64,000 nt of DNA from Oncomelania hupensis (taxonomy: Eukaryota > Mollusca > Gastropoda > Littorinimorpha > Pomatiopsidae). A program made the position numbers and the translations under genes. The notes under the pieces were generated by a model that was not told where the DNA came from, made no database searches, and saw only the letters and a program-made list of their open reading frames with translations. Below, in pieces: positions 1-63,352 of this stretch (within the stretch, counting starts at the first letter, position 1; the number at the start of each line of letters is the position of its first letter). Location: NCBI GenBank assembly GCA_036898135.1, contig CM072527.1, forward strand, positions 1,894,373-1,958,372, read 5' to 3'.

Positions 1-3715
<3,715 letters not shown>

Positions 3716-4089
3716 TTTCAGGAATCGGCCGAAATATTACCGGCAATTCAGCCACGTACCGTCTGAAAGTCTGCCAGCGGAAGTACCGGAAGTAGTGATA
3801 TGGAACAGCCGTCATGTTATTTATAAGAAATTGAAAGTTATTCTATTGTTTTCTTTATTTTACACAATTTGACATTTTAAAAAATCGTATATTAAAAACG
3901 AGTAATTTAAAAATTGAATAACTACGCTAATATTCAACTTTACAATAAGTCCTGAAAGCAAATTTATTTTTAAACATAATTTTACTGGGGAGTGAATGTA
4001 GCAGACGGCATCGCTGCCACGTACGCAAGCACGTCCGATTAGCATCGTTATTTCTCGGAAATCGTCGGAAACTACCGTAAACATACAAG
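3716..4089. promoter_or_regulatory. Shared divergent promoter of SURF4 and TADA1
   Basis: Only 374 bp separate the start codons of the divergent SURF4 (minus) and TADA1 (plus) genes, so this must contain both promoters and both 5' UTRs. Two ETS/GABP-type cores are visible: GCGGAAGT at 3777-3784 and ACCGGAAGT at 3785-3793. The TADA1 start lies in CAAGATGGCTGCGCC (4087-4101), which fits the YY1 consensus AAGATGGCGGC. No TATA box is obvious near either start. ETS plus YY1 without TATA is typical of bidirectional housekeeping promoters; binding is inferred. Confidence 0.65.
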
Positions 4090-4396
4090 ATGGCTGCGCC
4101 CTTGGAGCTAAATGCAGCTCGTAAGAGTTTGACTGATGAGCTTGGAGAATCATCCACAATGTAAGAATTTGCTGTGCTATTTTGGCACGTAAATAAGTTT
4201 CCTACACAATATTTACGATTATGAAAACTTTTTAAATGGAAATGTGTCGTATTTGCAGTGTATAAAGCGGCCGGCATCATATAAATGATATCATAATATA
4301 ATTATAATTATTATTAATTAAACTCACACTCATTTTTTAGTGAGTTAGTCATTATTTTGTCTACAAATTGTACTTGTACAGTTGTATTACAATTCA

Positions 4397-4454
<58 letters not shown>

Positions 4455-6879
4455 TGGACAACACTCCAAATGTTTCCATCGAAGAAGAAAGATTGAAGTT
4501 CAGTTCAATTAGGACTTGTGTAAGCCTAATGGCTTTTTAGTGTCCCATTCAATTTCGACAACTGTAAATATTTTATGGGTTGCATTACAGTTGCTTGGGA
4601 AGTTTTAAATCAAAGTGAATACAGTAGATCACTCATCATATATGAATTTTGTATCTTTTAAGAATTTTACCTGTTTAAGGAGGTTCTTAAATTCATTAAG
4701 TAGTAGCAGTAGTAAATAGAGGCATAATTCCATGCATCTTCATTCAATGTGCAAGAGACACGATAGTGCATTTTTGGAAAAAATATAATAACAATCGTCA
4801 TATTTTTTAAACTTAGCTATGAGTATAAATTTAGAATTGTTGTCCAGAAGGTTTTTAAAAGCTTTGACATTTTTTGCAAATTTTGTGTTAACTGGGAGAT
4901 AATTCAATTTTTTTACGACCCTGTTTGCATAAGAAAACTTTCAAATATTTGTTCAGTTATAATTTACCAACAATTTACCTTGCTGATTTCTAGTCTGGTT
5001 GTTGTTTGTCTGAATATAGCGGTTGAAAACTAACTTGGTCTGTCCGGTGAAATACAGTAAAACCTCCGTTTTGAGACCATATCTTAAACGACTTCCTCCA
5101 ACATACGACCGGAAAAAAATTCACCGATGGTTTGTACTATATAAACGACCTCTCTTAATCGACTACCTCTAAAACGCGATTGCGACCTTCAAATAATTAA
5201 ATGTTATGACCTAGCATCTGAAAAATTCCTATTCCAAAGCCATACTATCTGTGCTCTTGAAGAAAACAGTTTTGTTTACAACTTTTAACAGCAGACGATG
5301 CATTAAAACAGCTTGAAATACTCTAAGGAGCTGACCAGATTTGCCCTGAGCAGGGGCCTGTCAGATATTGCAGACACCATGTCTGGTGTTCAAAGTGACA
5401 TACTAAGAGAACATGCATGGGTGGGGTGGGGGGGGTGGGTGTTGATGGGTGATGCAAACAAACAGAAATAACTGCTTTCTTTAAAAAAAAAAAAAAATAA
5501 AGAACTATTCAATGATTGAATAAAAATAATTACAACAATATTAAAGGGTTTTTCTTATAAATAATTATTACTCCAAACATGCACTCAGCACTTACATACA
5601 CTTTTAAACAACTATCATACCAACATTGATTTTTTATTTTGTAAATAATGAGGAACAGGAAGATATTGACTGTATTGGTTGTGAGACAGAGTTTAATCTA
5701 TATTTCTGAAAGATGGTAGATGTTCCCTATACTTAATGGTATGTGTACTTTTGGTACATGTATTTATTTTACTTAATTAATTTTCTTAATGTCTTTTTCG
5801 AAAATGTCCTACCTCTTTTTTAAGACCCCTCCAATTTACGACCTCATTTTAATGGCAATTTAAAGGTTGTAAAACGGAGGTTTTACTGTATTTTGTATAA
5901 CTGAATAAAATCTCCTCTTAACCTTCTTCCCTTAATCGTTGGCAAGTTTAAATGCTTTAACCTTTTGGTGTATGTCATGTTTGCGCATCATTCATAATAT
6001 TATTAGTGGTTTTAACATGTGCTGATAGTTTGTTCCCAAAGGGTGCAATTCTATTACTGAAAAGATTATTAAGTTGTTTTTTTTTTTACTTATTGAAAAC
6101 TTTAATCATGAATTGAAGGATATTCAAATTGTCTTGTCTTATCTTTTCGTAGTCGCTCACAGTCATACTTGTTGATTACACTGGCACTTTAAAAGGGGTT
6201 TGAGCATGTTTTGCTGACAACCATTCAGCAAGTTCATTTAAAAAACAGCTCAAGTTACTGAAAGCGGGGGAAGGGAAGATTGTAGCGGTGATAATGATGA
6301 ATCTGGGCAGTGGGAGACCCTTGACACAAACGTGTCAATAGTTTTGGTCTGTACTGCCTCCTGGGGAAGATCATTCCAGTCTATTGGATGGCCCAATGGA
6401 TGGCTTTTTGTTTGAATAAATAATAATAATAATAATGGAAACTGGAATTACAGTTATGAACATTTTTGTCTGCAATTCCTTTTCCCCAGATATTTCCAGA
6501 ATTTGGCATCTTGGTTCAAGAAAAAGGTATGATTAGAGTATTTTACTATTTACCATAAGACATTTATTTATCTTTGTTAATTTTTTTTCTTTCTTTTTAC
6601 TGTAGCTTACTCCAAAATGTAAAGTTGTTGCTGGTACTGATGGGGCAGTGTTGGCGTTGTATGATGGATTATCTTTTTTAATTTTTTTAAAAAAATCTGT
6701 TCACATTTCTATTAAAGACAAGGCAAGGGCTTGATTTGGTATTAATTGGAATTGAAAATGGTGCATAAATTATGCAAATAAATCAATTGATGGTGGAATA
6801 AAAAATAAAATTAAAACATGTTGTAATCTCTTTGTATGACTTAGCATTATAGAAGTGTTAATTTTTTTTGATGATATTG

Positions 6880-25941: not shown

Positions 25942-46157
<20,216 letters not shown>

Positions 46158-49666: not shown

Positions 49667-49928
49667 GTAGTAGTAGTAGTAGTAGTAGTACTAGTAGTAT
49701 GGCATGCAGGCTAAAAAGCCTTTGGCCCTCATAACTGATCTTAATGAGGGTCCCAAGACCCCCTCCCCTGGCATCAGTGCCTACCAATTTAGAACATTAT
49801 TCTGACACCAGCGAACCAGTTGATGGTAAGGGGAAAATAATATGGTCACACATTGGCCAATCCGGGATTCGAACCCTGTACCTTTCGGTTACTAGTAAGA
49901 CGCTCTACCAACTGAGCTACCCGGCCCC
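49667..49928 (-). mobile_element. tRNA-derived SINE, family 3
   Basis: On the minus strand the head GGGGCCGGGTAGCTCAGTTG, then GTAGAGCG (A box), and B box GGTTCGAATCC (49865-49875) form a good tRNA-like start. A body of about 190 bp follows (TGTGTGACCATATTATTTTC … AGGGCCAAAGGCTTTTTAGC), ending in an (ACT)n tail at 49667-49700. The long body and simple-repeat tail mark it as a SINE and not a functional tRNA gene. Confidence 0.8.
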
Positions 49929-55040: not shown

Positions 55041-55842
55041 ATACTACTTGCAGACTTTTAGAAGCTCGGTCCGAAGCGAGAGCGTTTTAAGGTCATTGTT
55101 CGTCTGTTACGAGTATGAAGCATACGCGAGCGTTATTTCCCTTTGCCTACTTTCCTTTCGCGCCAAGCGCGCTGTCTGCTTTGTTTGTGAAAAAGACACT
55201 CGCTACAGCCCCCACGGGCTCGGCTCCGCGTGCCGGGGGTGGACCCCAAGCCTCTCTCTGGCTGGGTGACCAAGTTGCCTACCCCTTTTTCTTCTCTTTT
55301 ATCTTGTTTCTGTCTTATTGGTCCTTTCACCTATATTCTCTTCACCCGTAAATTCTCCCTGTATACTGTGCAGTTTTGACTCCCTTTCTTCTACCTTACC
55401 GGACTTTCCCTGTCTTCCTTTTCCCCATCATTCCTTCTTTGTCTACCCTTCCTTTTCTCTGTGGCCTTCTCTTGGCCCCCTGCGTTTGCCGTGCAGGGCA
55501 ACCCGTGTCGGGGGAGAAGGGGATCCTGGAGGTTGAGGTCACTGAGGGACTGCGGTCCCTCACACTAACACACCTCTTTGGCCCGGACTTCTCCTAGACG
55601 GGAGGCTGGCGTGGCCCGCGTCAGTCAAGCGGCTGGTCGTGTATTGCCCTAGCTCTGCTAGAAGGCTGCGGCTCATGGGTCAAACTTGAACAATACCGTA
55701 GTGGCAGTGCGGGACTGTCTGGGTGTATATCCCCCCTGTAACCCTGGTGCGTTCCCTTGCTGGATTTTCCGCTTGGACGCATCCCCTTGTTGGACTCCGT
55801 GGTGGGTGGGGGGCAGGGGGGATGAATAAACAATCTTAAAAC

Positions 55843-57260
55843 ATGGCATCCACCAAAAAACAAAAACGTACTTATGACGGACTGGACAAGGATACTGGAC
55901 ATGATTCTGACAGCGACACTGAAACTCGACGCACAGCCAAGGAATCTGGCCTTTTCAAAACATGGCCACGCTTTTTGACCGTTAAGTTGACAAATGAAAG
56001 CCAAAAGATTTCCCCTTTTGTCGTTGAAAAGTGGTTTGAAGGGATATCTCGCCAGATCAAAGATATCAAAAGACAACGGGATGGTAGTTTTTTAGTGGAC
56101 TGCCCCACAGAAAAGACTTCGGACCAATTGATATCTAGAGATGGCACCAAGCTGGAACTCGGTAGCAGAGTGTTTGACGTGAGTGTGACTTGTCACCGCA
56201 CACTCAACTCCTCCAAAGGAGTTGTGCGGTCATCCCAGTTTGATGGTCTGTCTGAGACGGAAATTAAAGATGGCTTGGCTAAGCAGGGAGTGACTGAGGC
56301 TCATAGGGTCATGCGAAAAGACAAGGACGGAAACAGAGTACCCACTAATACTCTGTTTCTGACCTTTTGCACACCTGAAGCACCAAAAAGAGTTATTGTG
56401 TGTTATGAAAGTATTCCTGTTTCCGTGTTTGTACCTTCACCACTGCGTTGTTTTAAATGCCAGAGGTATGGACACGGTAGCACGGCATGCAAAAACACGC
56501 CGACCTGTTTCAAGTGCGGGGGGATTTTCATGGTGAACAGTGCGGTAATGCTCCAAAGTGCTATAATTGCAAGGGAGACCATCCTGCGTCTTCAAAGTCT
56601 TGCCCTGCTTGGATCAGGGAGGCTGAGATCCAAAAAATCAGATCACGAGACAAATGCTCCTTTCCAGAGGCGAGAAAACGGTATGAGCTTCTCAACCCGT
56701 GTGATACAAACAAACCGAGTTTTGCTAAAGTGGCCTCAACACACACTTTGCCAGACATGCTCAAATCCATCTCATCCATGATCTCTGTTGCTAACAATTC
56801 TGATTTAGGATCGCTCCTGAGCTCTCTGAAAACCTTAACACAATCGCTAGAGAAACGCCTGTTGGAGAATGAGAATAAGGAGAGAGTTAAAGTTGCCCCT
56901 AGTAACCAGCAGCGGTCGACCACAAGCAGGCCAACTTCCACTGCGACAGTGCCACCTCCGGCGGCAGTGTCGAAAGCCGTTGCCACACCTCTGCACCCTG
57001 TTCCGCCTTCGGGGCAGGGGCGGACGTCTGGTTCGCGACCTCCCTCCACATCACCCCATCGGGGTCGAACCCATTCGGCTGGGGTCGCACAGCGTTCGTC
57101 GAGCTCAAAGTCCTCTTCAAGGACTGACAATAAGTCAAGACCATTGTCTTCCAAAAAAGACGCTCATTCGAATCGGTTCGCCTCCCTGGAGGTAGAATCA
57201 GTTGACATGGAGGAGTCGCCTTCACAGGAGTCAGCACCTCCATCTACAGCTAAAAAATAA
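55843..57260 (+). pseudogene. LINE ORF1 (gag-like CCHC nucleic-acid-binding protein), one frameshift
   Basis: The protein starts MASTKKQKRTYDGLDKDTGH. A basic region and an RRM-like domain (residues about 45-190) follow, then CCHC knuckles: CFKCQRYGHGSTAC, a second starting CFKCGG, and CYNCKGDHPASSKSC. The frame is lost in the G run at 56518-56523 between the second knuckle's Cys pair and its His; the downstream part reads in the overlapping frame from 56487 to the stop at 57260. The C-terminus is Ser/Pro-rich. ORF1 proteins of this type coat LINE RNA. A one-base loss from the run would explain the break; sequencing error at the homopolymer is possible. Confidence 0.85.
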
Positions 57261-57330
57261 TCTATTATAATTAAGGAGAAACTTATAACTTTGATTGAAA
57301 TGAAACATACTCCTTTTATTTATTTCTACT

Positions 57331-57368
57331 ATGACCTTTTTAATACAGTGGAACATTAGGGGGCTTAA
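57331..57368 (+). pseudogene. Severed N-terminus of LINE ORF2
   Basis: ATG at 57331 opens MTFLIQWNIRGL, the canonical start of the LINE endonuclease, including the conserved WNIRG Asn. It is cut at CTTAAA by the inserted element and continues as KANYEQLLLLSKTRPSLICL at 59715 onwards. Joining at the single TTAA restores the frame exactly. Confidence 0.85.
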
Positions 57369-57675
57369 AGTAGGTAGTCAAAAGCCTCTTAAGTGATTGG
57401 TCCGCTGTCGAGTTTTGACCGAATTTTGCTTGCATTATAACATGCTAATTTATCCTAAAAATGCATCAAAACGAATAAATTTTAAATTAAAATAAAAGAT
57501 TAGTCCCTTATCTTGATGTTTTTTGTTGTATCTATGTTCGTTTTAAGCGTTATTGATTTAATAAAAGTTTTTAAAGATGGGAGCGTGTGGTCTGTTTCGA
57601 CGCAAACCGGAAAAGTGATTTGCATGGCAGGTCGAAGGGTACAGTTTTCAAATGCAAAGTGCTTGGCTCCTACTG

Positions 57676-57705
57676 ATTGGATTGTTATAAATAGACAACC
57701 AATGG
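57676..57705 (+). promoter_or_regulatory. CCAAT/TATA-type promoter inside the TTAA element
   Basis: TGATTGGATTG (inverse CCAAT) at 57674, TTATAAATAG at 57685-57694 and ACCAATGG at 57698. The ATG of the element gene is 300 bp downstream, so either a long 5' UTR or another start point is implied. Confidence 0.4.
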
Positions 57706-57996
57706 AAAGCTCTGTTTCTTAGCTTTCCACTGAGACCAAATGAACCGGAAGTTTTTAAGAATTTCTTTGAATGCGCTTTGTGCAAAGTGTTATCTCAATA
57801 TTTTCGAAACTTTTAACTTGTTCAATCGGTAACCACGACATACTAAAAAAAAGACGAATCTTTCAACAAACTAATGCAATAGTTTGTTTTACTATACGAA
57901 TTTATCGACCCGAGCACTTTTAGAAAGAAAACAGGTTTCTGACGGACTTTTTTTATTACGATCACGGCAACGGCGTGGCTGCGTCAGTGCGCCATC

Positions 57997-59181
57997 ATGG
58001 AAGAAAACATCGCATCTCAGCTTCCAACATTCAATCTGGTCACACTGGTTGGTAAGTGAAATACTTACTAAATTTATACTTTAGAATTACAGATATATAA
58101 TCATTATTATTTACGCATTTTAGTTAGCATCGATCGTCATTAGGCCTACTCATAGTGGTACTACTACATAGGCCTAAACATCGACTTGTGCTTTCAAGAA
58201 CTTAGTAAAAGTAAAGTGGATCGCTAGACTCTAGCCTACTGAAAATGCAATCTCACTCTCAAGTGACAGTCACCATTCGATAATTATTTAAATAATGGTG
58301 TTGTTCCTTAGCTGATTTTGTTTCTGCACCGAAGATAATTATTTTACTTTTTGTTGTTGTAGTACAGGTATCATTTTAATCACACAAACATTAATCAGAG
58401 TAGGCCTACACTGCAAATTCTGAAAGTTTTTATTCCCACGCCCAGCGTTCTCATATATTATTAGTTTCTAGAGCTTTTATTTATGAATTGTTTTGTTTTG
58501 TTTTAGCATACATTCAAAGAATAAGTGTAGCCTAAATTGTAAGAGTTTATTACACTTAATTCTAAGTGTAACTCCAATTTTATTATTATTTTTCAATTGT
58601 TATATTTTGTACTTATGTTTCTCTCACTCTCTGTCTGCAGGTGGTGAAACCTATGATGGCTTAAAGAGATTATTTCTTGCAAGAGGAAAAGGAAGGCCTC
58701 CTGATCCACCACCAGTTTCTTTGACCAACATGGCAACATAGTACTTCTAGTTCTACAGTTGGAGTTGCTCAGACAAGTTGGGAACAAGTCAAGAAATGAT
58801 GTAAGATTTGATTCTTGCTGTATTATAATAGTAAATACAAATAATAATAGCAATTTTATTATTAGTAGGTTATATATACATTCATTCACTGATTTCACAC
58901 ATTCATGAAAGTGCATATTTCTTTTATATCTTCTTGAACGGCTGCCAACCTCAACTTATTGAGGATGCTGCAGCCAAATGCTGGGTATGTTCTTGTTACC
59001 GGCACTCGCCCGTCTAGGACAAGAAGAAGAAGAAGAAGAATGTGTTTGTGCATCAAGTAATTTATGATGAGTAAACATTTGCATATTTTAATTCCATCAT
59101 GTCTTTTCATTTTTTCAGGTTGCTGATTGGTTCACACTACTGTTTCCTGGTGTTGCTTACCCAGCATTGTGTGTTAAATAA
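57997..59181 (+). pseudogene. Small three-exon gene of unknown function in the TTAA element
   Basis: Exon 1 57997-58051: MEENIASQLPTFNLVTLV, donor G|GTAAGTG. Exon 2 58641-58800: acceptor CTGTCTGCAG, then GETYDGLKRLFLARGKGRPP and DPPP. In this frame a TAG ends it at 58741, while the +1 frame (DQHGNIVLLVLQLELLRQVG, NKSRND) stays open to the donor GAT|GTAAG. Exon 3 59119-59181: acceptor TTTTTTCAG, then VADWFTLLFPGVAYPALCVK and stop, with AATAAA overlapping the stop. Splice signals are strong and phases of exons 1-2 and 2-3 agree with a single product of about 95 residues if one base is off between 58702 and 58740. No known family was recognised; no transmembrane segment is clear, but the LLVLQLELL stretch is hydrophobic. 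Function unknown. Confidence 0.5.
58985..59035 (-). mobile_element. tRNA-SINE family 2 scrap inside intron of the element gene
   Basis: TTCTTGTTACCGGCACTCGC followed by CCGTCTAGGAC matches 21450-21487 of SINE family 2; (AGA)n follows. Confidence 0.5.
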
Positions 59182-59692
59182 AAAAAAATTCTTGGGCATA
59201 AAAAAATCTTTTTTTGTTTTCTTTGTTATTGTATGTCTTTGTCTGTTTGTTTTGTAGATCTATTAAAACTGATCACTTTGGTATAAAATATATTGAGATA
59301 GGACAATTTAAAGTGAAGTTATGCCATTTTTACTATTTCGGGCATAATTTTGTACGTAAAGTAAAGATTTTGTCCACTTCGGACACCTGTATAATGGAAA
59401 TTATTATTGTTGTCATCCTAAAAAAAATTGGAGTTGCAATTTGGTATACAAAGACCAGGTACACAAAAAATCAGTCATTTAATGTTAACCATTATGATGG
59501 TATGGATGCTCAAAGTTGGGATTTTTCATAATTTGCCAACGGTGCCAAAATAACGTCAAAATTTACGACCTTGCAGCACCCATTTCTTAAAAACTATTAA
59601 TCCTACATAAATAAAAAAGATACCATTGTGTTCAGAATGAAAAGCTCTTTAAATCTATGTCAGTTTTGTGATGAGGAAATCAATTTTTAAAA

Positions 59693-62600
59693 ATGGCTTT
59701 TGACTACCTACTTAAAGCCAACTACGAACAGTTGCTCCTACTTTCTAAAACCCGACCAAGCTTAATATGTCTACAGGAAACTCTTCTGAGCCCTGATAAA
59801 ATACTCCAGTTATCTGGATACTTTTGCTTGCAGTACAATGTTTCTCGTGGGAACGCTTTATGTGTTCGTTCAGACATTTTATTTAGCCCAGTTACATTGA
59901 ACACACCCCTGGAGGCGATTGCTGCTCGAGTATCTTTCCAAAAAACTGTAACAGTCTGCTCCTTATATTTGTCCCCTTCCAAAACCATTTGCAAAGCTGA
60001 TTTACTAAACTTGATAGACCAACTCCCAACTCCCTTCCTGATTGTTGGGGATCTGAATGGCCACTCCCCCAGATGGGGAAGTGACCATCAGAATCCCCAA
60101 GGCAAAATTTTGGAGAATGTTGTTGATGACCTCAACCTTTGTATTTTGAATTCAGGTTCCCCTACGTATTGTAACCATTTAGGAAAATTTTCTAATTTAG
60201 ACCTGGCCATCTGTGACCCCTCTCTTTTTTTGGACCTGGATTGGAAACCTCATACAAATCTCTGTGGGAGTGATCATTTTCCAATTTTTCTAACGTTTCT
60301 AGAAGATCAATCTGAGGAGCCCCAAAAGCGCTGGAATTTCAAAAAAGCAAATTGGGTCCAATTTGGACACTCCGCAGCTTGTCGAATTACCACTGACATT
60401 CTCAATTCCGAAGATCCAGCTTTGGCTTTTTCTAATATCCTAATAGAATGTGCTTCCGAAAATATACCCAAAACATCTATTAAAAGCAGTGCCCCGAAGA
60501 CCCCTTGGTTTGATGAAGAATGCAAGACTCTTCATCATCAAAGGAAGCAAGCCCAACGGAGTTTCTTTCGAAATCCTACAGCTGAAAATAAACTTATTCA
60601 TCAGAAACTACGAGCTAAAACTAGATATATCTTTAAACAAAAAAGGCGTCTATCATGGAAAACCTTCTGTTCCAAACTTCATACCAAAACCTCTCCCAAA
60701 ACAGTCTGGAAAATTATAAAAAGAATTAAAGGAAAAAACTCCAAAGCTGTGATCCAAGGTCTGAAACAACGTGGTCAGATTATCACTGACAGAAAGCAGG
60801 TGGCTGACTTGTTAGCCTCTACCATCCATCACAATTCTTCATCTGCTCATTATTCCCCCAAATTCCAAAACATCAAAGATAAAAAAGAAAGAGAATCCTG
60901 TTTTTTTGACACCGATAATTGTGAACCATATAACCTCCCATTTTCTATGGAAGAATGGACAGATTCCATCTTGAAATCCAATAACTCTGCTTCTGGCCCT
61001 GATGATATTCATTATCAGTTAATTTCACACCTGCCTAAAGATTCCCTTAGAATTCTCTTGGCTGTGTTTAACCATATCTGGTCTTCTGGTTCCTTTCCCC
61101 CATCTTGGCGAGAAGCCGTAATTGTTCCAATACCTAAACCTGGAAAGGATCACTCTGACCCAAACAACTACAGGCCTATTGCCCTTACAAGTTGTTTGTG
61201 CAAAACTATGGAAAGAATGATCTATGAGCGTTTGATGTGGCAGTTAGAATCCATTAATGCTCTTGATGTCACTCAGTGTGGTTTCCGCAAAAACAGGAGC
61301 ACTTCAGATCATCTCGTTCGATTTGAGTCATTCGTCAGAAACGCGTTGATTAACGGCGAACATGTTGTTTCTGTGTTGTTTGATCTAGAAAAGGCTTATG
61401 ACACGACTTGGAAGTTCGGGATTCTAAAAGATCTAGAACAGCTAGGCTTCTGCGGGAACTTACCCATTTTTATAGAAAATTTTTTAACCGATAGAAAGTT
61501 TCAGATCCGCCTTGGCTCCACTTTATCAGAATCTTTTGAGCAGGAGATGGGTGTCCCTCAGGGTAGCATTTTATCTCCTCTTTTGTTTAATGTTAAGATC
61601 AACAACATCGTTCAAAACGTCAAATATGGCATAGATAAATCCTTGTTTGTTGATGATTTCTCCATCTCGGCTAAGGGTAAAACCTTGGCTGGGGTGGAGC
61701 GTCAACTTCAGCTTTGCATAGATAAAATTCAGGGGTGGGTAGAAGACAACGGCTTTCAATTTTCGCTTTCTAAAACCGAATGCATTCATTTTCATCGCAA
61801 ACAGAATCAGGTTTTGAACCCCTCTCTCCATGTTTATGACCAACCCATCAAAGTTTCTAAACAAGTAAAATTGTTGGGCATTATTTTTGACAGCAAATTT
61901 ACTTTTCTGCCGCATATTAAATACCTGAGGGACAGCTGCCAAAAAGGTCTTAACGTTTTGAAAGTTATCAGCCACACAGACTGGGGAGCAGACAAGCAAA
62001 CTTTGCTCCTCCTCTATCGTTCTCTAGTGCGCTCTAAATTGGATTATGGTAGCATCGTATATGGTTCTGCTAGGAAAGCCTATTTGAAAGCCTTGGATCC
62101 AATCCATCATCAAGGTCTGCGGATCTGTCTGGGGGCGTTTCGCACTTCACCGAAGGAAAGTCTTTACGCTGAGGCTGGCGAACCTCCCTTGGATATCCGC
62201 AGGCTCCAGCTCGCCATGAATTATTTCCTCAAACTTAAAGCAAATCCTGAAAATCCCGCTTATGATTGTGTTTTAAACCCGTTATTTACACTTAAATACT
62301 CCAACAAACCGACAGAAATTCCTCCTTTTGGTATCAGAATACGTCCTCACTTTGACACTGCAGGCATAGATGTTGACTCTGTTAATGATGATCAATTGCT
62401 AACTGTACTTCCACCTTGGAACCTCCTCAACCCCATTATCAACTTTGCTCTTACATCCTTCAAAAAGACCGAAACATCCGAAACTGTTTATAAGCAACTT
62501 TATCTCGAACAATGTTCATTGTATAAAGGATATGAAAAACTTTTTACAGACGGGTCGAAGAAAGGAGACTCAGTTGCTGCTGCGTTGGTCTCTGGGAGAC

Positions 62601-63352
62601 ACCTAGATCAACCTTTGCAACAGCGTTTACCTGATTGTTGTTCTGTTTTTACAGCTGAGCTTAAGGCAATTCATCTAGCTCTGAAACAGGCTTTTCAATC
62701 CAAAAGAACCTCTTTTTTAATCATGTCTGATTCTCTGTCAGCACTTCAAGCTCTTTCCACTAGAAAGATATCGCACCCTTTTCTGGCTGAGATCCATGAC
62801 CTCCACACACAACTTGTTTCTAAGGGTAAAAAGATAGTTTTTATGTGGGTACCTAGTCACATGGGCATCCGCGGCAATATTGCAGTGGACAAAGCGGCTA
62901 AAGAAGCTCTACATCTGGATTTCCCTTCAGAGATTTCCCAGTTTGTTCCATACTCTGACCTGCGTTGTATGACTGGATCCTATTGTAAACGGCTGTGGCA
63001 GACTGAATGGTCTAATCAAATCAATAACAAACTATTTCAAATTCTTCCAGATTTGTCAGCTTCTTTGCCAAACTTTGCATCCACTCGCAAAGAAGAAACT
63101 GTTTTGGCTCGCCTTCATATTGGACATACTTATATCACTCATAATTTCCTTTTAAAAGGAGAAGAACCCCCATGGTGCTTTGCATGTGACAAATCCCTTT
63201 CTGTTCGCCATTTTCTGTCTGAATGTGCTGATTTGGTTTATGAAAGAGAAAGATGTTTTGGTTCAATGCCTTTTAATGAGATTTTTAAAGTATGCAATGG
63301 TCAACACTTGTTCCAGTTTTTACATAATGTGGGTTTGTTTTATCGCATTTAA
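59693..63352 (+). CDS. LINE ORF2: endonuclease, reverse transcriptase, RNase H (N-terminus replaced)
   Basis: 1219 codons without a stop. Endonuclease: CLQETLL, VGDLNGHSPRWGS, SDHFPIFL. Reverse transcriptase: PIPKPGKDHSDPNNYRPIAL, CGFRKNRST, LFDLEKAYDTTWK, GVPQGSILSPLLF and active site SLFVDDFSI. RNase H (about residues 950-1080): KLFTDGSKKGDSVAAALV, FTAELKAIHLAL, IMSDSLSALQAL, WVPSHMGIRGNIAVDKAAKE, i.e. D-E-D and the last His/Asp region. A Cys/His tail WCFACDKSLSVRHFLSEC follows. The first eight codons (MAFDYLLK) are read from the terminal repeat of the inserted element and replace the native MTFLIQWNIRGLK start, so the conserved WNIRG of the endonuclease is lost. The rest looks intact. Confidence 0.92.
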   Translation: MAFDYLLKANYEQLLLLSKTRPSLICLQETLLSPDKILQLSGYFCLQYNVSRGNALCVRSDILFSPVTLNTPLEAIAARVSFQKTVTVCSLYLSPSKTICKADLLNLIDQLPTPFLIVGDLNGHSPRWGSDHQNPQGKILENVVDDLNLCILNSGSPTYCNHLGKFSNLDLAICDPSLFLDLDWKPHTNLCGSDHFPIFLTFLEDQSEEPQKRWNFKKANWVQFGHSAACRITTDILNSEDPALAFSNILIECASENIPKTSIKSSAPKTPWFDEECKTLHHQRKQAQRSFFRNPTAENKLIHQKLRAKTRYIFKQKRRLSWKTFCSKLHTKTSPKTVWKIIKRIKGKNSKAVIQGLKQRGQIITDRKQVADLLASTIHHNSSSAHYSPKFQNIKDKKERESCFFDTDNCEPYNLPFSMEEWTDSILKSNNSASGPDDIHYQLISHLPKDSLRILLAVFNHIWSSGSFPPSWREAVIVPIPKPGKDHSDPNNYRPIALTSCLCKTMERMIYERLMWQLESINALDVTQCGFRKNRSTSDHLVRFESFVRNALINGEHVVSVLFDLEKAYDTTWKFGILKDLEQLGFCGNLPIFIENFLTDRKFQIRLGSTLSESFEQEMGVPQGSILSPLLFNVKINNIVQNVKYGIDKSLFVDDFSISAKGKTLAGVERQLQLCIDKIQGWVEDNGFQFSLSKTECIHFHRKQNQVLNPSLHVYDQPIKVSKQVKLLGIIFDSKFTFLPHIKYLRDSCQKGLNVLKVISHTDWGADKQTLLLLYRSLVRSKLDYGSIVYGSARKAYLKALDPIHHQGLRICLGAFRTSPKESLYAEAGEPPLDIRRLQLAMNYFLKLKANPENPAYDCVLNPLFTLKYSNKPTEIPPFGIRIRPHFDTAGIDVDSVNDDQLLTVLPPWNLLNPIINFALTSFKKTETSETVYKQLYLEQCSLYKGYEKLFTDGSKKGDSVAAALVSGRHLDQPLQQRLPDCCSVFTAELKAIHLALKQAFQSKRTSFLIMSDSLSALQALSTRKISHPFLAEIHDLHTQLVSKGKKIVFMWVPSHMGIRGNIAVDKAAKEALHLDFPSEISQFVPYSDLRCMTGSYCKRLWQTEWSNQINNKLFQILPDLSASLPNFASTRKEETVLARLHIGHTYITHNFLLKGEEPPWCFACDKSLSVRHFLSECADLVYERERCFGSMPFNEIFKVCNGQHLFQFLHNVGLFYRI

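Follow-up and report, generated by a model that had tools for sequence, protein, structure and literature searches.

Described cut-and-paste DNA transposons differ in their ends and in the target-site duplications they leave. piggyBac elements end in a CCY motif, PIF/Harbinger elements duplicate a 3-bp TWA, and hAT elements include subgroups with 5- to 6-bp duplications. Comparisons with Hermes, P and Galileo, Kolobok, and Dada draw on published accounts (PMC3706591, PMC2775673, PMC5753468, PMC9587614, PMC4168063, PMC10368747, PMC7776569). Here, we analyze el1, a 2340-bp element at positions 57371 to 59710, plus strand, of a 64,000-nucleotide stretch of the Oncomelania hupensis genome (the window; contig CM072527.1, 1,894,373 to 1,958,372). 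We conclude that el1 very probably derives from a cut-and-paste DNA transposon as a non-autonomous copy, internally deleted and chimeric, and that the small gene inside it is a relic, which, judging by its sequence, likely has no function of its own. This rests on common ends, target-site duplications, a LINE reading frame that is open at the empty site, and an open gene in a parent element.

The borders of el1 are well defined. Its ends are the inverted repeats GTAGGTAGTCAAAAGCC and GGCTTTTGACTACCTAC, perfect across 17 bp as an earlier note on this DNA had stated, and the terminal inverted repeats (TAGGTAGTCAAAAGCC at 57371 to 57386, plus strand, and its counterpart at 59695 to 59710, minus strand) recur in 20 of 25 loci. 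Flanking them is an exact 7-bp duplicate, CTTAAAG, at 57364 to 57370 and 59711 to 59717. The insertion lies near the start of open reading frame 2 (ORF2) of a long interspersed nuclear element (LINE), with ORF2 (endonuclease, reverse transcriptase, and RNase H) at 59675 to 63352 on the plus strand and its first residues left of el1, and the LINE frame ...IQWNIRGLKANYEQ... is open once el1 and one duplicate are removed. For el1 alone, TAA, TTAAA, and CTTAAAG are all possible duplications because the ends of el1 are partly palindromic; we rejected TTAA, TTAAA, and the 3-bp TAA, as each fits el1 alone and the remaining copies establish a length of 7 bp. The note was right that el1 is a mobile element with no transposase inside, that its ends are unlike those of the piggyBac type, and that CCAAT and TATA-like sequence is present (near 57674 to 57704, by eye). 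The TTAAA duplication that it proposed is present but is only the center of CTTAAAG, and its description of a TTAA-type element fails, as the 20 scored duplicates are 7 bp long and varied.

Copies of el1 are numerous and similar. A search of the 1.45-Gb genome that holds the window returned 26 matches of at least 833 bp to the left kilobase of el1 (92 to 100% identity) and, from the best 40 of 951 first-look candidates scored, at least 28 matches of at least 521 bp to the right end (95 to 100% identity), el1 included in both cases, with many short right-end matches besides. Twenty-five el1-like loci were retrieved for scoring of ends and duplications, and in 20 of them the duplication was exact and 7 bp long; position 2 was T in 18 of these 20, and position 6 was A in 18, a target of nTnnnAn. 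Mean divergence among copies was 2.4% at the left end (21 sequences) and 1.6% at the right end (23 sequences), and thus the spread is recent. Moreover, an end-pair scan of the window gave only three pairs with 7-bp matches, el1 and two further elements, el2 and el3; the same scan gave no pairs at 5, 6, 8, 9, or 10 bp, one at 4 bp, and seven at 3 bp. By comparison, 100 Markov-1 sequences of window length gave 7 such 7-bp pairs in total, and in a first control, 58 of 59 permuted ends gave none while one gave 3. The duplications of el2 and el3, which have TAGGTA-type ends, argue for 7 bp rather than a shorter duplication at el1.

Larger elements carry what el1 lacks. End pairing recovered L013 (7608 bp), L014 (6079 bp), and L015 (6608 bp), all flanked by exact 7-bp duplications, and no pair was obtained at L016, L017, or L019. 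Two further elements, L045 (5859 bp, duplicate CTTTGAG) and L046 (duplicate TTTATAC), correspond to the el1-like loci L040 and L041. All five encode parts of one long protein, and the predicted gene model of L045 joins five exons into 1167 residues with no stop. The open gene of L045 and its near-identical sister L046 suggest recent activity. Between subfamilies, the proportion of synonymous differences (pS) was 0.735 to 0.839, which is saturated, and that of nonsynonymous differences (pN) was 0.157 to 0.312 in five comparisons; thus, the parent protein has been under selection. Although the transposases of subfamilies A and B are this distant, the subfamilies have a common last 540 bp, and those of L013, L014, and L015 are each 95.6 to 96.7% identical to that of el1, which suggests, at the level of sequence, that lineages may exchange ends. 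We note that another repeat, with ends like AGAGCTGCCAAC, has inserted twice into L013 and disrupts it (by eye), within transposase exons at element positions of about 2497 to 3070 and 3840 to 4645, and that a similar start occurs in the window near 44145.

The small gene of el1 is the beginning of the parents' gene. Element positions 1 to 1088 are 95.4% identical to L045 and positions 1094 to 2340 are 93 to 96% identical to L013, and the chimera junction, L045-like to the left and L013-like to the right, lies at 58458 to 58464. On the plus strand, the remnant of exon 1 (57997 to 58051) is almost identical to L045 exon 1, that of exon 2 (58641 to 58800) aligns to L013 and other copies, and the start of exon 3 (59119 to 59181) ends about 20 codons in, where it crosses an internal deletion (junction 59172 to 59174, with the loss of element positions 1917 to 7069 of L013) into the parent 3' region. 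The final stop and AATAAA derive from that parent 3' end. Exon 2 holds an insert region at 58730 to 58753 (plus strand) with an 8-nucleotide insert and, in el1 and the copies closest to it, a further 6-nucleotide insert, and exons 1 and 2 joined reach an in-frame TAG at 58739 to 58741 after 51 residues; the frame open over the exon 2-exon 3 junction is a different one. Because of the 8-nucleotide insert, 21 of 22 scored copies, el1 included, are out of frame, and thus the lineage that amplified did so with no working product of the three exons. A minus-strand frame of 120 residues opposite exon 2 was considered and rejected, as its sole matches, DUF6170 at E 0.15 and DUF5359 at E 9, fell far below the cutoff. 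The earlier note had rightly pointed to three blocks that resemble exons and whose splice signals are good, and to an AATAAA overlapping the last stop (both by eye), but its product of roughly 95 residues does not survive the TAG. Its first guess, a captured host gene or cargo, gives way to the first three exons of a transposase-like gene. Its second, a transposase elsewhere in an undescribed superfamily, came close to the parents, although the gene is not accessory cargo. The note had also allowed for a decayed Kolobok or piggyBac transposase, and a presumably autonomous copy indeed shows the gene to be a decayed transposase, but the target site places the parent in neither group.

How el1 spread can be outlined. 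The product of the parent gene would most likely be a DDE transposase whose core resembles that of Hermes; it would bind the ends of parent and derivative elements alike, excise the elements, and join them to 7-bp staggered cuts at nTnnnAn. Having retained both ends, the promoter-like region, and frame-shifted exons 1 to 3 while losing the catalytic core, el1 would have spread by using a parent's transposase. A puzzling cargo-gene element thereby becomes an ordinary deletion derivative.

Several observations weigh against this account. A script detected no duplication at five of the 25 loci; in L021 both ends are present, yet its flanks differ; L037 has lost the right end; and L040 to L042 match el1 in the left part only, L042 (L047) being interrupted by a LINE. 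Without the 8-nucleotide insert, L026 has an open 87-residue frame through three exons, and L036, with the insert, is still open in the shifted frame. The L045 gene model needs a GC-AG intron, and L045 against L046 gives a nonsynonymous-to-synonymous rate ratio (dN/dS) of 1.37 from very few changes, with no signal of selection. Finally, the fold models are those of relatives, P0003 and P0021 (about 47% and 41% identity to L045).

What the parents are is a more tentative matter. The modeled relatives are predicted to have an RNase H-like core with a large helical insertion and a final acidic residue matching the Hermes fold, together with a C/DxxH-type motif (CxxH), an extended coiled coil, and a beta domain at the C terminus; the structural alignments gave only 11 to 13% identity. 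DDE chemistry of the Hermes type may be inferred for the parent protein from these models. No tried transposase family model matched the parent protein. Neither BED nor hAT dimerization models were found in the whole L045 protein (three sub-threshold families), in P0003 (five families), in seven L013 frames, or among 25 of 99 families listed for 30 members, although divergent forms may be present; no THAP domain was found in the whole L045 protein or in the spliced exons 1 to 3 of el1. Perhaps the parents represent an undescribed superfamily or a deep sister of hAT, with a Hermes-like core and a 7-bp nTnnnAn target, found in molluscs, an annelid, and a nemertean, whose lineages exchange terminal segments. 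Among the titles and abstract openings that the literature searches listed, none described the family or named it. The analysis brings out a transposase-like protein family whose members, in these three groups, are named in the sources searched almost only as uncharacterized. If the classification is true, unclassified repeats of mollusc and worm genomes could be named, and a Hermes-like core with a 7-bp instead of an 8-bp cut would help in testing how the architecture of a transposase determines the stagger.

Alternatives to these readings were weighed. Membership of the P superfamily, with duplications like those of Galileo, is unlikely. In its favor, the 7-bp duplication is typical of Galileo and falls within the 7 to 8 bp of the superfamily, and a coiled coil ahead of a catalytic core with an insertion inside it recalls P. 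Nonetheless, the elements differ from P, Kolobok, piggyBac, Harbinger, and Dada in one or more of the features tested for each. Truncated P-element proteins act as repressors, and the N-terminal peptide of el1 might likewise repress the parent transposase, such that the derivative regulates its parent. Exons 1 and 2 are joinable in 22 of 23 copies, and a frame of 49 to 53 residues is kept in 18 of 22, but the retained piece stops short of the parent protein's coiled coil, retention of a frame among copies so young (1.6 to 2.4% apart) needs no selection, and a Pfam scan of spliced exons 1 to 3 recognized no domain, making such a repressor very improbable. Least credible, and already largely refuted, is a captured host gene or accessory cargo gene still producing a small protein, for although the splice signals, the promoter-like sequence, the frame kept in 18 of 22 copies, and the three-exon frame of L026 speak for it, exons 1 to 3 correspond to the first exons of the long parental gene, 21 of 22 scored copies have the 8-nucleotide insert in common, and the 51- and 92-residue products had no match in 5.8 billion proteins at word-based sensitivity.

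The window holds further repeats. el2 (40476 to 41508, minus strand; duplicate ATGAAAG) is a 1033-bp deletion derivative of parent subfamily B. Its first 638 bp are 89% identical to L015, positions 682 to 971 are 92% identical, and the last 200 bp are 79% identical. el3 (41924 to 44049; 2126 bp; duplicate CTTTTAC) has TAGGTAG ends, and beyond them its interior does not clearly resemble el1 or the parents. It contains, at 42636 to 42710, one copy of a dispersed repeat, GGTTAAACGATCATCTGTGGTGCCCC..., that occurs in at least five places in the window on both strands (18511, 30996, 36804, 42636, and 52845). A tRNA match at 49854 to 49926 on the minus strand (32.4 bits against an Rfam threshold of 29) is perhaps the head of a short interspersed nuclear element. 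The LINE that received el1 spans 55840 to 63352; its gag-like ORF1 is split over two overlapping frames, and its frame of 1225 codons (endonuclease, RVT_1, and RNase H) is open, with its start interrupted by el1, and thus this LINE copy looks young.

The 3-bp TWA of PIF/Harbinger is not what these elements duplicate; TAA fits el1 alone, and the scored duplicates are longer and varied. With Kolobok and piggyBac they share AT-rich targets and, with Kolobok, a C/DxxH motif, but they have neither the TTAA duplication nor the CCY ends of piggyBac. Dada likewise has 6- to 7-bp duplications and a C/DxxH-type transposase, but its families are described without terminal inverted repeats and in small-RNA genes, whereas inverted ends are present here and the target of el1 is a LINE. 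Unlike hAT elements such as Hermes, the elements have a 7-bp rather than an 8-bp duplication, TAGG(T/C)A ends, and, in the modeled proteins, a lengthy coiled coil and a beta domain at the C terminus, and they lack recognizable BED or hAT dimerization models. Like Hermes, they have short inverted ends, a predicted fold that matches over the RNase H core, helical insertion, final acidic residue, and CxxH, and a target, nTnnnAn, that resembles the nTnnnnAn of Hermes. As the 8-bp duplication and recognizable hAT domains are absent, we do not file el1 under hAT, though the models suggest that it works like hAT.
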